Part shown: positions 2-7,339 of the stretch, piece after piece
Numbering within the stretch: the first letter of the stretch is position 1
How the letters are laid out: every line of letters begins with the position of its first letter
Source of the DNA: a virus
Strand: one strand, 5' to 3'
Length of the DNA: 25,291 nucleotides
Virus record (IMG/VR): IMGVR_UViG_3300044516_001432
Span: 1 to 25,291 of that record
Made by a program: the position numbers and the translations under genes
Notes under the pieces: generated by a model
Told to the model about the DNA's origin: nothing
The model's input: the letters and a program-made list of their open reading frames with translations, nothing else
Database searches by the model: none

Positions 2-3000
2 ACTCAAATCCCTAAATATGAAGCGGCATACATTGCTAAATCATATCTTCAACAATCTAATCAGTTATTCGTAACAAGAGTATTAGGTTTGTCGGGTTAT
101 GACGCGGGACCTTCTTGGTCTTTAACCGTAACTGCGAATGTTGACCCATTAACAATTGGATTAAATCCATCTACAGGAACTACTTGGAGTGCTACTTTTA
201 CAGGAACATCTTCAGGTGGAACAATAACATTTTTAGATACAAATGATTTACCTTCACAAGTATCGGCAAATTACAACACACAATATAGATTGGCTGATGG
301 TTCAGTTTCAACATATTCAAATGACTTTAATAGTTACTTGGATACGATTATGGACACACCATCATTATCGGCAACAACTGCAATAGTATATGGTGCTATT
401 CCTGAAACTACTTACAATAGTTTAGTTTCAACTTATAGTGCTGTAACAAATGCTTATGATTGTTATTCAGTTGATTTATCACAAAATGATTTAAGTGCTG
501 GTTCTAACGATTCTTGGTATTATGCTAACTTCCAAAACTATAGTGCTGATAGTTATTCAGGTTATTCATTTGATTACGTTGTAAGTTCATTAACTTCAGG
601 TTCTTCACAAAGTTTTACAGGAACTGTATCGGGTAATGTTTATAACTTCTCAGGTACTGCTTACCCTGAATACAATAATATGGTTGTTGCTACTTTACGT
701 TCAAGAGGTATTTCATTATACACTAATAATTCAACAAGTGAAAATCACGGACCTGTTTATCAAGTTACTGGTTTAACCGATGTATCATTACTTTGTAGTG
801 GTCAATATTCAGGTATAACAACTTCACCATATGCAACATTTGCAATTTCAGGTGTTACTAAAGAAAATGAAGTATTCACATTTGAAACTTCATTATTGGC
901 GGCATCATCAAAATATCTTACAAAAGTTTTTGGTTTTGATAATTTTGGTAAATCAAGATTTGAAGTTCCATTATTTATTGAAGAAGTTTATCCAGCATCA
1001 TTAGCTTATGGTTACAACCAAGGTTATGTTCGTGGATTAAATTGTACTTTAATCGAGTTACCTGAAGCAAGAGATACAACATCAACTACTTCAATTGCTT
1101 GGAATTTAGAAAAATATCAATCACCAGAAACTCCTTTCTTAGTATCTGAGCTAAGAGGTAATAAAGTTTATAACTTATTTAAGTTTATTTCAATTTCAGA
1201 TGGTGATTCCGCAAATACAGAAGTTAAAGTTTCAATTGCTAACTTATCATTTAATAATATGACATTTGATGTGTTGGTTAGAAGTTTCTTCGATACGGAT
1301 GCAAATCCTGTTGTAATTGAAAAATTTACAAATTGTAATTTGGACCCAGCATCTAATAACTTTGTTGCTAAGAAAATTGGTTCATCAAATGGTGAATACG
1401 CTTTAATTTCAAAATTTATTATGATTGAAATGGCGGACGAAGCACCAATAGATGCAATTCCTTGTGGATTCTACGGTTATACTCAAAGAGAATACGAAAA
1501 TTATTCAACATATCCATCACCTTATATTCAATATAAAGTGAAATATAATTACCCTGGTGAAGTTATTTATAACCCACCATTTGGTACAACTACAGGTGGA
1601 GTTTCAAATGCAGTTGAATCGGGTGGAGATATTGTAAGAAGAACTTACTTAGGATTTTCAACTACTCAATATGGTGTTGACGAATCATTCTTCTCTTATA
1701 AAGGTAAACAAAATCCAACAGTAGATTGGATAAATAGAACAGATTCTGTTAAATGGAATGTATTAAGTAAAGGTTTCCATATGGACTCAGGTGCTACGGT
1801 TGTTAATATTGGTAATACCTCTGTTGATAGTGGAACTACTGCATTCGAATGTGGTGTTGCTGATTTTAGAGAAGACCCACAAACTCAAGAAAATCCATAT
1901 TACTTCATTTACTCAAGAAAGTACACAGTATGTTTCGCGGGTGGATTTGACGGATGGGATATCTACAGAGAATTTAGAACAAATCAAGATAGATTCCAAT
2001 TAGGTGATTCAGGATATTTGGCAGGTGCTGCGGCATCTCCAAGATACCCAACGGCAACTGGTGATGGTGTATTCAAAAGAATTATTGTTCAAAACAATAC
2101 TCAAGACTTTGCAAACACTGACTACTATGCTTACTTATTAGGTGTATTAACATTTGCAAACCCTGAAGCAACAAACATTAACGTTTTTGCAACAACAGGT
2201 ATTGATTATGTTAACAACTCTAATCTTGTTGAAGAAGCAATTGATATGATTCAATTTTCAAGAGCTGACTCGGTTTACATCGCAACAACTCCTGATTACA
2301 ATATGTATACTCCGGATTCAACTAACTCTTTAGATATTATTTATTCACAAGAAGCAGTTGATAACTTGGATAATACAGGAATTGATTCAAACTACACAGC
2401 TACCTACTATCCTTGGATTTTAGTTAGAGATACTGTAAGTAATACTCAAATCTATTTACCACCAACAGGTGAAGTTTGTAGAAACTTAGCGTTGACTGAT
2501 AATATTGCTTTCCCTTGGTTCGCATCTGCGGGTTACACAAGAGGTTTAGTAAACTCAATTAAAGCAAGACAAAAACTTACTCAAGAAGATAGAGATACTT
2601 TATATCAAGGTAGAATCAATCCAATCGCGACTTTTGCTGATGTTGGAACGGTTATTTGGGGTAACAAAACTCTTCAAGTTTCTGACACAGCATTAAACAG
2701 ATTAAACGTAAGAAGATTGTTATTACAAGCTCGTAAGTTAATATCAGCAGTAGCGGTAAGATTATTGTTCGAACAAAACGACCAAATCGTTAGACAACAA
2801 TTCTTAGATAGTGTTAACCCTATTTTAGATGCGATTAGAAGAGACAGAGGTTTATACGATTTCCGTGTAACAGTTTCATCTTCTCCTGAAGATTTAGATA
2901 GAAATACATTAACAGGTAAAATATATCTTAAACCTACGAAGGCATTAGAATTCATCGATATTGAGTTCTTTATTACTCCAACAGGAGCTTCGTTTGAGAA

Positions 3001-3007
3001 TATTTAA
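2..3007 (+). CDS. Contractile tail sheath protein, gp18-like (5' end outside window)
   Basis: This is the subunit of the contractile sheath around the tail tube, which drives genome injection. The frame is open from base 2, so the true start lies upstream. The first visible residues (YLQQSNQLFVTRVLGLSGYD) are a typical inner motif of T4-family sheaths, so the TTG at 89 is not the start. About 1001 residues are visible, against 659 for whole T4 gp18. The extra length includes a Ser/Thr/Tyr/Asn-rich insertion at visible residues about 37-215, between the LGLSGYDAG motif and the conserved VATLRSRG motif. The C-terminal third (from about base 2480) is the conserved sheath core: FPWFASAGYTRG, then RLNVRRLL, then a final TPTGASFENI strand. 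A strong terminator follows the stop. The family call is firm; the role of the insertion is unknown. Confidence 0.93.
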   Translation, partial: TQIPKYEAAYIAKSYLQQSNQLFVTRVLGLSGYDAGPSWSLTVTANVDPLTIGLNPSTGTTWSATFTGTSSGGTITFLDTNDLPSQVSANYNTQYRLADGSVSTYSNDFNSYLDTIMDTPSLSATTAIVYGAIPETTYNSLVSTYSAVTNAYDCYSVDLSQNDLSAGSNDSWYYANFQNYSADSYSGYSFDYVVSSLTSGSSQSFTGTVSGNVYNFSGTAYPEYNNMVVATLRSRGISLYTNNSTSENHGPVYQVTGLTDVSLLCSGQYSGITTSPYATFAISGVTKENEVFTFETSLLAASSKYLTKVFGFDNFGKSRFEVPLFIEEVYPASLAYGYNQGYVRGLNCTLIELPEARDTTSTTSIAWNLEKYQSPETPFLVSELRGNKVYNLFKFISISDGDSANTEVKVSIANLSFNNMTFDVLVRSFFDTDANPVVIEKFTNCNLDPASNNFVAKKIGSSNGEYALISKFIMIEMADEAPIDAIPCGFYGYTQREYENYSTYPSPYIQYKVKYNYPGEVIYNPPFGTTTGGVSNAVESGGDIVRRTYLGFSTTQYGVDESFFSYKGKQNPTVDWINRTDSVKWNVLSKGFHMDSGATVVNIGNTSVDSGTTAFECGVADFREDPQTQENPYYFIYSRKYTVCFAGGFDGWDIYREFRTNQDRFQLGDSGYLAGAAASPRYPTATGDGVFKRIIVQNNTQDFANTDYYAYLLGVLTFANPEATNINVFATTGIDYVNNSNLVEEAIDMIQFSRADSVYIATTPDYNMYTPDSTNSLDIIYSQEAVDNLDNTGIDSNYTATYYPWILVRDTVSNTQIYLPPTGEVCRNLALTDNIAFPWFASAGYTRGLVNSIKARQKLTQEDRDTLYQGRINPIATFADVGTVIWGNKTLQVSDTALNRLNVRRLLLQARKLISAVAVRLLFEQNDQIVRQQFLDSVNPILDAIRRDRGLYDFRVTVSSSPEDLDRNTLTGKIYLKPTKALEFIDIEFFITPTGASFENI

Positions 3008-3968: not shown

Positions 3969-3976
3969 TATTTATA
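3969..3976 (+). promoter_or_regulatory. TATTTATA element, candidate phage promoter box (tail tube gene)
   Basis: The octamer TATTTATA lies in the 127-bp AT-rich gap before the tail tube gene, with 32 bases between it and the ATG. The same octamer precedes four other genes in this window. It is the reverse complement of the T4 late box TATAAATA and also resembles the Bacteroidetes -7 box. Apart from it, the gap (3882-4008) shows only A/T-rich sequence and a weak imperfect inverted repeat near 3902-3929. Confidence 0.5.
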
Positions 3977-4008: not shown

Positions 4009-4497
4009 ATGGCTGATTTATTAATGAAAATGCCGGTTCCTTATGAACCAAAACGTCAGAATCGTTTCATCTTAAGGTTTCCATCAAGTTTGGGTATAAA
4101 TGAATGGTTCGTAGAAACTGCTCAAAGACCACATATTCAAATCGCTGCGACTGAAATTCCTTTCCTAAATACATCAACATATGTTGCGGGAAGATTCACT
4201 TGGCAAGCATTAAATGTTACGTTTAGAGACCCAATTGGTCCTTCAGCGGCACAAGCATTGATGGAGTGGGTACGTTTACACGCTGAATCAGTTACAGGTC
4301 GTATGGGTTATGCTGCGGGTTATAAAAAAGATATTGACTTGGAGATGTTAGACCCAACGGGTGTTGTTGTTGAGAAGTGGATTCTTTATGGAACATTCTT
4401 AACTGACGTTAACTTTAACTCATTATCATATTCTCAAGATGCTTTGGCAACAATTGCGGCAACTTTGAGAATGGATAGATGTGTGTTAGTTTACTAA
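4009..4497 (+). CDS. Tail tube protein, gp19-like
   Basis: This is the inner tube subunit, stacked in hexameric rings through which DNA passes into the cell. At 162 residues it matches T4 gp19 (163). The order of features also fits the family: an N-terminal NRFILRFP strand, a central IPFLNTSTYVAGRFTWQALNVTF region matching the family's IPVGFMNRKINVAG-type stretch, a helix (AQALMEWVRLHAESV) in the middle, then KDIDLEMLDPTG and a closing strand. It is in the expected neighbourhood, downstream of the sheath and upstream of the baseplate assembly genes. It has its own candidate TATTTATA promoter and a terminator, consistent with high-level separate expression. No Shine-Dalgarno sequence is seen; the leader is nearly all A/T. 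Confidence 0.88.
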   Translation: MADLLMKMPVPYEPKRQNRFILRFPSSLGINEWFVETAQRPHIQIAATEIPFLNTSTYVAGRFTWQALNVTFRDPIGPSAAQALMEWVRLHAESVTGRMGYAAGYKKDIDLEMLDPTGVVVEKWILYGTFLTDVNFNSLSYSQDALATIAATLRMDRCVLVY

Positions 4498-4567: not shown

Positions 4568-5320
4568 ATGGACAATCAACAATCAAACGACTACGGTCAA
4601 CAAAATTTTACATTACCACACGATGTGGTACCATTACCCTCACAAGGTATTTTTTATAAAAATAAAAAGAAATCAATTAAGGTTGGTTATCTTACCGCTG
4701 CCGATGAAAATATTTTAATGGGTGGTGCAAAAGATTTAACACTTAATTTATTAAGGTCAAAAATATACGAACCCGATATTAGAGTAGAAGAATTAATTGA
4801 AGGTGATGTTGAGGCAATTCTTATCTTTTTAAGAAACACAGCATTTGGACCTGAAATGACATTAAACCTAACTGACCCGGCAACTAAAAAACCATTTCAA
4901 ACAAATGTTTTATTAGACCAACTTTCAATTGTTAATGGACAACAACCATCAGAAGATGGTACTTTTTCAATTAATTTACCTAAATCTCAAGCAACAATTA
5001 AAGCTAAACCATTAACTTATGGCGAAATTACGGAGTTATCCAGAATGGCTGAAACATATCCTCAAGGACGTGTTGTACCAAGAGTGACTTGGAGAATGAA
5101 TAAGGAAATTGTTGAGGTAAATGGAACAACAGATAAAACCGAAATTGCGAAGTTTGTTGAGTCAATGCCAATTTTTGATTCTAAAACTTATCGTAAGTTT
5201 ATGGATGATAATGAACCCAAGCTCGATATGTCGAGAGTAGTAATAGCCCCATCAGGAGAACAACTGACAGTTAACGTCGGTTTTGGGGTTGACTTTTTTC
5301 GTCCTTTCTTCGGATTATAG
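4568..5320 (+). CDS. Baseplate hub assembly protein / tape measure chaperone, gp26-like
   Basis: This 250-residue protein carries the hallmark of the T4 gp26 family near its N-terminus: VVPLPSQGIFYKNKKKSIKV followed by LTAADENIL. T4 gp26 (208 residues) acts in baseplate hub assembly, and in T4 genes 26 and 51 lie upstream of the tape measure gene 29. Here too the gene lies directly upstream of a tape-measure-like gene. The zero-frame protein ends VDFFRPFFGL and stops at TAG. A second open frame (+1) begins inside it at 5268 and runs on past the stop to 5453, so a fraction of ribosomes may shift frame at the TTT TTT C run (5294-5300) to make a product of about 294 residues. The start ATG follows a terminator by 2 bases. 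The family call is strong; the exact role is from homology. Confidence 0.85.
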   Translation: MDNQQSNDYGQQNFTLPHDVVPLPSQGIFYKNKKKSIKVGYLTAADENILMGGAKDLTLNLLRSKIYEPDIRVEELIEGDVEAILIFLRNTAFGPEMTLNLTDPATKKPFQTNVLLDQLSIVNGQQPSEDGTFSINLPKSQATIKAKPLTYGEITELSRMAETYPQGRVVPRVTWRMNKEIVEVNGTTDKTEIAKFVESMPIFDSKTYRKFMDDNEPKLDMSRVVIAPSGEQLTVNVGFGVDFFRPFFGL

Positions 5321-5453
5321 ACAAGGACAACTTGATGAGTTTTATTACTTAAATACGTTAATGAAAATAACGTATCAAGATTTTATGGTAATGCCCGTTT
5401 TTATGCGAAAATATTTGTTAGATAAATGGGTTGAAAATAATAAGAAGGACTAA
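5268..5453 (+). CDS. +1-frame extension of the gp26-like gene, gene 51 position (probable frameshift product)
   Basis: This open +1 frame runs from just after a stop at 5265-5267 to TAA at 5451-5453. Its protein looks real: after the overlap it reads DYRQGQLDEFYYLNTLMKIT and then a region with FMVMPVFMRKYLLDKW. Leu-rich helices ending in a basic/Trp segment recall C-terminal extensions of frameshifted tape measure chaperones in other phages. No ATG lies near its beginning. TTG codons at 5283 and 5289 are possible starts; the ATG at 5361 would give only 30 residues. A +1 shift at GAC TTT TTT CGT, with tRNA-Phe slipping from UUU to UUC, would join residues 1-244 of the upstream protein to 50 new residues. 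Coordinates give the open frame, not a proven start. Confidence 0.65.
   Translation, partial: QLTSVLGLTFFVLSSDYRQGQLDEFYYLNTLMKITYQDFMVMPVFMRKYLLDKWVENNKKD
5294..5300 (+). other. Candidate +1 ribosomal frameshift site TTTTTTC
   Basis: In the gp26-like frame this reads TTT TTT C. A peptidyl-tRNA-Phe on the second UUU can re-pair with UUC one base downstream, a good match for its GAA anticodon. The site lies inside the 53-base overlap of the two frames and 18 bases before the zero-frame TAG. A -2 shift on the same run would reach the same frame. Confidence 0.5.
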
Positions 5454-5469
5454 AAAATTAGTCCTTCTT
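5442..5469 (+). terminator. Strong hairpin at the end of the gene 51-like frame
   Basis: A perfect 12-bp stem (AAGAAGGACTAA / TTAGTCCTTCTT) closes on an AAAA loop. The stop codon of the +1 frame is in its left arm. What follows (CTATTTATAGG) is only moderately T-rich, so termination may be weak; an RNA-stability or processing role is possible. It sits directly before the TATTTATA element of the tape measure gene. Confidence 0.65.
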
Positions 5470-5470
5470 C

Positions 5471-5478
5471 TATTTATA
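5471..5478 (+). promoter_or_regulatory. TATTTATA element upstream of the tape measure gene
   Basis: An exact TATTTATA directly follows the 12-bp hairpin and has 19 bases between it and the ATG at 5498. There is no TTTG/TTGACA-like box at the right distance upstream, which fits a single-box late promoter of the T4 type better than a host promoter. Confidence 0.5.
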
Positions 5479-5497
5479 GGTAATGAGAAATTAAATT

Positions 5498-7339
5498 ATG
5501 GCAGACGATTATAATAAAAAATCTTTAGAGGATATCGCAAAACTACTTAACGACATTGCAAGTCCGTTACAAAGTGTTGCTTCTGCAATTTCGAATATGA
5601 TTGTTGAAGCGGATAGCCTTAACAGAGCATTTGGTGGTGGAAGGGTTCGAATCGAGGAGATGAATTATGCTATTAAAGATTCTGTTTCATCGATAAATAA
5701 ACTTGGTGGTGATATTTCTGATGTTACCACAACAATGGCAGGAATTGCTGAGGGTTCTCGAAGGAATGTAATTGCTACAGAAGAACAAGTTTCTAAATTA
5801 TATGCATCAGGACAAATATTAACTAGAACTGCTGCCGATTTAACTGAATCGTTTGGTAGTGCGGGTTATGAGGTTTCTCAAATTGGTGTTAATGTTGAAG
5901 AATCGATTGGATATGTTCAAAGTTTAGGTTTAAATGCTAAAACAATAACACAAGATGTTGTTAGAAATTTAGATTCAATGAATCGTTTTAATTTTAATGA
6001 TGGTGTTCAAGGTTTAACCAAAATGGCGGCACAAGCATCAATGTTAAGATTTGATATGAGGGATACTGCTAATTTTGCCGACAAAGTTATTACTCCTGAA
6101 GGTGCTATTAATATGTCTGCGGCATTTCAAAGATTAGGTTTGGCTGTAGGTAGTTTGGGAGACCCATTCAAATTAATGAATGATTCAATTAACGACCCTG
6201 GTGCTTTACAAGATAGTTTAATTAATGCTACAAAACAATTCACATATTTTGACGAAAAAACAAAATCATTTAGAATAAACCCTCAAGGTATTTTAACCTT
6301 GAGAGAAATGGCTCAAGAAACAGGAATTTCTTATGAACAATTAAGTAAAACCGCATTAGCTGCCGCAGATTTAGATGATAGATTATCTGCCATAAGTCCA
6401 AGTATTAATTTTGAAAAAGAGGAAGATAAAATGTTTTTGGCGAATATGGCTCAAATGGATAAGGGTGAATATACGGTTAAAGTTAAAAATGCCAGAGGTG
6501 AACAAGAAACAGTTAAATTAGGTGAAATAACTGCTGAACAAATTACAAAACTTAGAGAACAACAAGAAAAAGCTCCAAAAACGGTTGAAGAAATTCAAAG
6601 AAGTCAGTTAGATGTTTTAACGGTTATTGGTGGAGATTTACAAGCGATTATAAATCAAATGAGATATGGTGTTGCTGGAGCAAAAGAAGTTGTATCTAAT
6701 GCTGAAGGTTTTAGGAACGTCTCAACCGCAATTTCAAGTGAAATTAGTAAGTTAACTCCGGAAACAAAAGAGGTTAGTGGGTTTATTGATGAATCGTTAA
6801 ATGCAATTCTACCTGCAATTATGGGAAAACAAGGAGGAGAACTTGACCAAAAAAGTTTTGAATCAAAAATTAAAGAAATTGAAGAAAAGTTTATTAAATC
6901 AACAGATGGTTTTGAAAATAAAACTTCTGAAGTTTTAAATAATTTAATTACTGGTGTTAAAGGTACTTCCGCAGCTGAACAAGGTTTTAAGTCAATAATT
7001 CAAGAATTCAAAAATGCCGTTGATATTGGTAAATCTGGACCAATTAAAACTAAAGTTAAAACAATTCCTGAGGTTGGAGGTGCTTCGGTATTTGGTGCTA
7101 GCGGAGCAAGAGTAAGACAAATTGAGGGAATGAATAAAGACAAAGACCCTGGTAAAGTTTCATTACAAAAACTTGATTTTGGTGGTATGATAACAATTAA
7201 GGTCGATGCCCCTCCTGGTGTTAGTGCCGAATATCTAAACAAATTCTTTACTGATTTTTTCAATAGTGAAAGTGGTAGACAACAATTATCAAAAATATCG
7301 AAACAATCTATAAAATCAGAAATGAAACCAACATCATAA
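5498..7339 (+). CDS. Probable tail tape measure protein (gp29-like position)
   Basis: This 613-residue protein is mostly predicted helix, with an N-terminal heptad-like stretch (IAKLLNDIASPLQSVASAIS) and many Ala, Ser, Thr and Gln residues. It resembles tape measure proteins in composition and in segments such as GILTLREMAQETGISYEQLS. It directly follows the gp26-like gene and its +1-frame extension, the place of a tape measure gene in tailed phages. Its length is close to T4 gp29 (590 residues), so a tail of roughly T4-like length is expected. Residues from about 565 to the end contain a FTDFFNSESGRQQLS segment. No transmembrane stretch stands out. The call rests on context and composition rather than on a diagnostic motif; another hub structural protein is the main alternative. 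Confidence 0.68.
   Translation: MADDYNKKSLEDIAKLLNDIASPLQSVASAISNMIVEADSLNRAFGGGRVRIEEMNYAIKDSVSSINKLGGDISDVTTTMAGIAEGSRRNVIATEEQVSKLYASGQILTRTAADLTESFGSAGYEVSQIGVNVEESIGYVQSLGLNAKTITQDVVRNLDSMNRFNFNDGVQGLTKMAAQASMLRFDMRDTANFADKVITPEGAINMSAAFQRLGLAVGSLGDPFKLMNDSINDPGALQDSLINATKQFTYFDEKTKSFRINPQGILTLREMAQETGISYEQLSKTALAAADLDDRLSAISPSINFEKEEDKMFLANMAQMDKGEYTVKVKNARGEQETVKLGEITAEQITKLREQQEKAPKTVEEIQRSQLDVLTVIGGDLQAIINQMRYGVAGAKEVVSNAEGFRNVSTAISSEISKLTPETKEVSGFIDESLNAILPAIMGKQGGELDQKSFESKIKEIEEKFIKSTDGFENKTSEVLNNLITGVKGTSAAEQGFKSIIQEFKNAVDIGKSGPIKTKVKTIPEVGGASVFGASGARVRQIEGMNKDKDPGKVSLQKLDFGGMITIKVDAPPGVSAEYLNKFFTDFFNSESGRQQLSKISKQSIKSEMKPTS

Follow-up and report, generated by a model that had tools for sequence, protein, structure and literature searches.

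Frameshifted tail chaperones are well known in phages, and T4 was excepted from the conserved tail-gene frameshift in a 2016 review (PMC5009743). For some T4-like phages, a short gene together with a separate fused long gene is reported by Vladimirov, Gautam & Davidson 2022, as cited in PMC10885494. The same study is cited in PMC12846349, an article that also refers to -1 sites of the poly-T kind in T4-like chaperone genes. The chaperone reading of T4-like genes is already published (Vladimirov et al. 2022) and is not new here. No account of the +1 site and direction changes reported below was found in the literature searched, the full text of Vladimirov et al. 2022 lying outside that search.

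The locus was analyzed in a 25,291-nt stretch of viral DNA, the whole of which is referred to as the window. As judged from sequence, it very probably yields two tail assembly chaperone products, both begun at a single start codon, through a +1 frameshift. The features of the locus are as follows:

4009–4497, + strand: tail tube gene, gp19-like (phrog_4542, E 2.2e-25)
4568–5320, + strand: TAC-N gene, gp26-like, with a zero-frame product of 250 aa (PF12322, phrog_150, AF2 model, VIA matches)
5268–5320, + strand: overlap of the zero frame and the +1 frame, 53 nt including the zero-frame stop
5294–5302, + strand: slip site TTT TTT CGT (TTTTTTCG[CT]CC in 80/80 close relatives; motif table, 114 representatives)
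5301–5453, + strand: D (TAC-C) domain read in +1, 50 aa (pN/pS, predicted fold, alignment)
5442–5469, + strand: 12-bp inverted repeat across the D stop codon
5498–7339, + strand: probable tape measure gene of 613 aa (by position and by a PhageMin_Tail match under the cut-off, E 0.0066)

The sequence-only reading had reported a +1 frame at 5268–5453 overlapping the gp26-like gene by 53 nt, with TTT TTT C inside the overlap. Re-derivation of the coordinates gave the same values: the +1 frame is open from 5268, after TGA at 5265–5267, and ends with TAA at 5451–5453, and the T run with its C occupies 5294–5300 in the zero frame. The fused product comprises 244 + 50 = 294 residues. An ATG is absent from the vicinity, as had been claimed; however, within the overlap the +1 frame has two TTG codons, at 5283 and 5289, that could still start it, so the window by itself is compatible with internal initiation. 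The gp26-like gene sits between the tail tube gene and 5498–7339, and SP-15, LIS04, and immuto each have an annotated tape measure gene in the corresponding position. The earlier placement of the pair ahead of a tape measure gene thus fits by position, while the PhageMin_Tail match falls short of the cut-off; from both together, 5498–7339 is the probable tape measure gene.

Several other elements were observed in the window. A tail sheath-like protein of 972 aa is encoded at 89–3007, its sheath match being confined to the last quarter. The inverted repeat at 5442–5469 is perfect, has the loop AAAA, and spans the D stop codon; of 15 related loci examined, most have a predicted hairpin at this stop or immediately 3' of it. 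The motif TATTTATA/T, which reads on the opposite strand as the T4 late promoter motif TATAAATA, occurs on the + strand 20–66 nt upstream of gene starts in six intergenic gaps (positions 3969, 4502, 5471, 7362, 19902, and 20902); its total in the window (16 vs 12.7 expected) is not above chance, and the positions are striking.

When 5321–5497 was shuffled, 49 of 5000 sequences (~1%) stayed open for 43 codons; the open +1 frame by itself is therefore weak evidence, and it was conservation across relatives that set it apart from chance. In 80/80 of the closest viral contigs, the site TTTTTTCG(C/T)CCTTTCTTC is present and is followed by the open +1 frame, with a +1 domain that is 67–100% identical. 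A wider set of 286 loci with a gp26-like gene was assembled from further scans and named phages; near-copies count separately in it, and a small number of contigs are present in duplicate. The D domain was found by profile in 274 of the 286 loci (265 in +1 and 9 in -1); inspection by eye added 6, all in +1, and the remaining 6 loci stop at a contig edge. Thus, D lay in +1 and overlapped the gp26-like 3' end in 271 of the 280 loci with data. After dereplication, 122 loci were retained, 114 in +1 and 8 in -1. Over 36 alleles, pN/pS was 0.18 in the D frame, the two alternative frames giving 0.69 and 1.60, and the D alignment contains an invariant P and R; on this sequence evidence, purifying selection acts on the +1 domain. 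A gp26 pN/pS of 0.508 was set aside, as it came from unaligned sequence. Both frames are conserved and coding. In the public records checked, the C-terminal part of the long form is omitted or annotated as a separate hypothetical protein, for example, in immuto (L288, 3845–3955), Mel-JY01 (L084, 3770–4006), and SP-15 (L085, 3755–3874).

The two TTG codons of the window, and an ATG or TTG within the overlap in many relatives, would suit separate synthesis of D, through internal initiation at TTG 5283/5289 or through coupled re-initiation. This was judged very improbable from the relatives with short overlaps: among the 29 representatives whose overlap is ≤26 nt, 21 lack any ATG, GTG, or TTG from which D could start, and D stays intact in these 21, with a +1 stop just 5' of the slip codon. 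The +1 frame opens ≤6 nt from the slip codon in 17 of the 114 dereplicated +1 loci. Conservation of the third position of the slip codon beyond codon use also counts against a separate start, as does the presence of both domains in one chain in T4 gp51.

The slip site is conserved as well. Nearly all of the 114 dereplicated +1 loci carry the motif TTT TTT (C/T)NN CCT, mostly as TTT TTT TGG CCT, TTT TTT TAC CCT, or TTT TTT CGN CCN; slip motifs of these loci were counted as TTTTTTTGG (69), TTTTTTTAC (12), and TTTTTTCG[TCAG] (17). The fourth codon is CCT in 97/114, and the zero-frame stop lies 9–18 nt 3' of the slip codon in 110/114. The conservation of CCT may be explained by dual coding, for Pro in the zero frame and Leu in +1. 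TTT serves as the slip Phe codon in 111/113 cases, where codon use predicts 82.8 (binomial P 2e-9, for loci that are not independent). Neither a conserved Shine-Dalgarno-like element in the position profile nor a conserved stimulatory RNA structure (mean z -0.5 vs -0.3 in controls) was detected, and downstream RNA structure was rejected as a frameshift stimulator, the related loci giving no consistent signal.

Variants of the site include TTC TTT, CTT TTT, and TTT CTT T; in Flavobacterium phage immuto (L288), it reads TTT CTT TGG CCT. In addition, the slip site has apparently moved to CCC AGT, at the end of the gp26-like gene, in L190, L193, L195, and L199, where it resembles the Pro-codon +1 sites of Listeria phages. 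All of these variants permit +1 re-pairing, and several bar -2 re-pairing and interrupt the T run. They bear on a -2 frameshift at the T run, which would reach the same frame with one extra Phe residue: TTTTTT in the window permits -2 re-pairing of P-site tRNA-Phe, and -2 frameshifting is known from phage Mu (PMC5009743), but homologous sites such as TTC TTT C/T, TTT CTT T, TTT CTA, and CCC AGT allow +1 and not -2 re-pairing, which makes the -2 route very improbable. Transcriptional slippage, producing edited mRNAs, would fit the T6–T7 run of most relatives; however, relatives with an interrupted run (TTC TTT C, TTT CTT T, or CCC AGT) keep the arrangement. A T6 run is short for polymerase slippage, and this explanation is extremely improbable. 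The best-supported reading is the one proposed from the window sequence, a programmed +1 frameshift at TTT TTT C producing a tail-chaperone pair; conservation in relatives carries it, and the homologue alignment that had been suggested as a check showed the site and the +1 overlap retained throughout the closest set and in nearly all of the wider one.

The zero-frame product matched PF12322 with 27.7 bits (cut-off 24.5; E 2.6e-6) and phrog_150 with E 1.1e-8 over positions 13–232 of 282. The short form and D were folded as separate models. The AlphaFold (AF2) model of the short form had a pLDDT of 90.9, and D by itself was predicted as a three-helix bundle (pLDDT 88.6). The top three VIA matches of the TAC-N model were YqbN (Z 5.6), RBSTP2171 (Z 5.3), and the HK97 chaperone (Z 4.3), followed by a match at Z 2.5; every one of these lies below Z 8, and Z 4–6 is a range in which chance matches occur. 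The three, all of solved structure, are tail assembly chaperones (PMC9603447). In BFVD, the short-form model matched predicted T4-like baseplate hub proteins. A Foldseek search against the PDB gave no convincing relative for the short-form or D model, and VIA gave nothing convincing with the D model.

The locus is homologous to T4 gp26/gp51. PF12322 matches both T4 proteins alike, and gp26 and gp51 are paralogues by sequence. The fused profile aligned nearly end-to-end with the gp51 family (probability 97%, E 1e-10, columns 37–314 of 344). D by itself matched gp51 weakly (E 0.0099), yet scored above 50/50 column-shuffled controls. On phrog_150, gp51 extends to position 280 of 282, and gp26 and the window product extend to about 235. 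Moreover, the gp51 family phrog_634 matched the -1 D frames of a cyanophage (1e-25) and Aeromonas Ah1 (2e-15), which thereby form a bridge between the D of the window and gp51. The proposed link to T4 26/51 was borne out, gp26 corresponding to the short product and gp51 to the whole fusion; the label "gene 51-like" for the +1 frame applies to the last ~45 residues of gp51 and not to gp51 as a whole.

We infer the slip itself, its efficiency, the slipping tRNA, and the function of both products as follows. Most ribosomes would read 4568–5320 and yield the short, gp26-like form TAC-N of 250 aa. In a minority, at UUU UUU CGU with peptidyl-tRNA-Phe on the second UUU, tRNA-Phe would slip +1 in the P site from UUU (5297–5299) to UUC (5298–5300), with which the GAA anticodon pairs well. 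Translation would resume at GUC in the +1 frame and run through to 5453, giving the long form TAC-NC of 294 aa, which would carry the three-helix D domain at its end. If the two products act as lambda G and GT do, TAC-N would cover the tape measure protein and TAC-NC, the scarcer form, would bring in tail tube subunits; by the same analogy, the gp19-like tail tube protein (gene 4009–4497) is the expected partner of the D domain.

Named phages with the +1 arrangement were Mel-JY01, SP-15, LIS04, GXN1, immuto, RM378, and LR756508, and those with -1 were XacN1, Atu_ph07, LR756511, cyanophage DSL-LC02, and Aeromonas Ah1; in DSL-LC02, Ah1, Atu_ph07, and XacN1, the -1 shift occurs at the same Phe-Phe codons. 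A 78-row tree, its root not fixed and with RM378 and the window row as long branches, required the +1 label to change at least three times on well-supported branches. The T4-type separate genes grouped with Ah1, adjoining the cyanophage, and the LR756511 group formed a -1 clade within +1. Locus L163 has the TGG CCT context of the +1 group, with D in -1 after TTC TTC; it carries no weight here as a direction change, since its sequence TTC TTC TGG CCT offers no good -1 site and may reflect an assembly indel, and the one change that it adds to the tree is possibly an artefact. On balance, we favor the view that a very large, mostly uncultured T4-like branch makes its long chaperone by a tRNA-Phe +1 slip at UUU UUU (U/C)NN CCU, that the direction flipped between -1 and +1 more than once at the same Phe-Phe codons, and that the T4 two-gene form arose within a -1 branch. 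The short and long genes of T4-like phages have reportedly been read as chaperones by Vladimirov, Gautam & Davidson (2022).

Through these phages, the T4 two-gene arrangement and the frameshifted one can be linked as versions of a single homologous locus. Their +1 sites supply a large natural alignment in which a compact +1 signal lacks obvious RNA structure. With direction changes falling at a single site, small codon differences could be used to test what decides between +1 and -1. The locus resembles lambda G/GT in arrangement, with a short product and, probably, a frameshift-extended long product encoded 5' of the tape measure gene (PMC5009743); lambda differs in the -1 direction and in its slip site. 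A +1 shift in a phage tail gene is known from tsh of the Listeria phages PSA, A118, and A500 and is likely in HSTV-2 (PMC5009743); the PSA type uses CCC UGA and lies in the major tail protein gene. The -1 T4-like loci of DSL-LC02, Ah1, Atu_ph07, and XacN1 have the same domain order and Phe-Phe shift codons, but carry a T TTT TTY heptamer and shift in the -1 direction. In T4 itself, gp26 resembles the short product and gp51 the whole fused product, both belonging to PF12322; T4, however, has two genes and no frameshift, whereas the window has one gene with a probable +1 shift.
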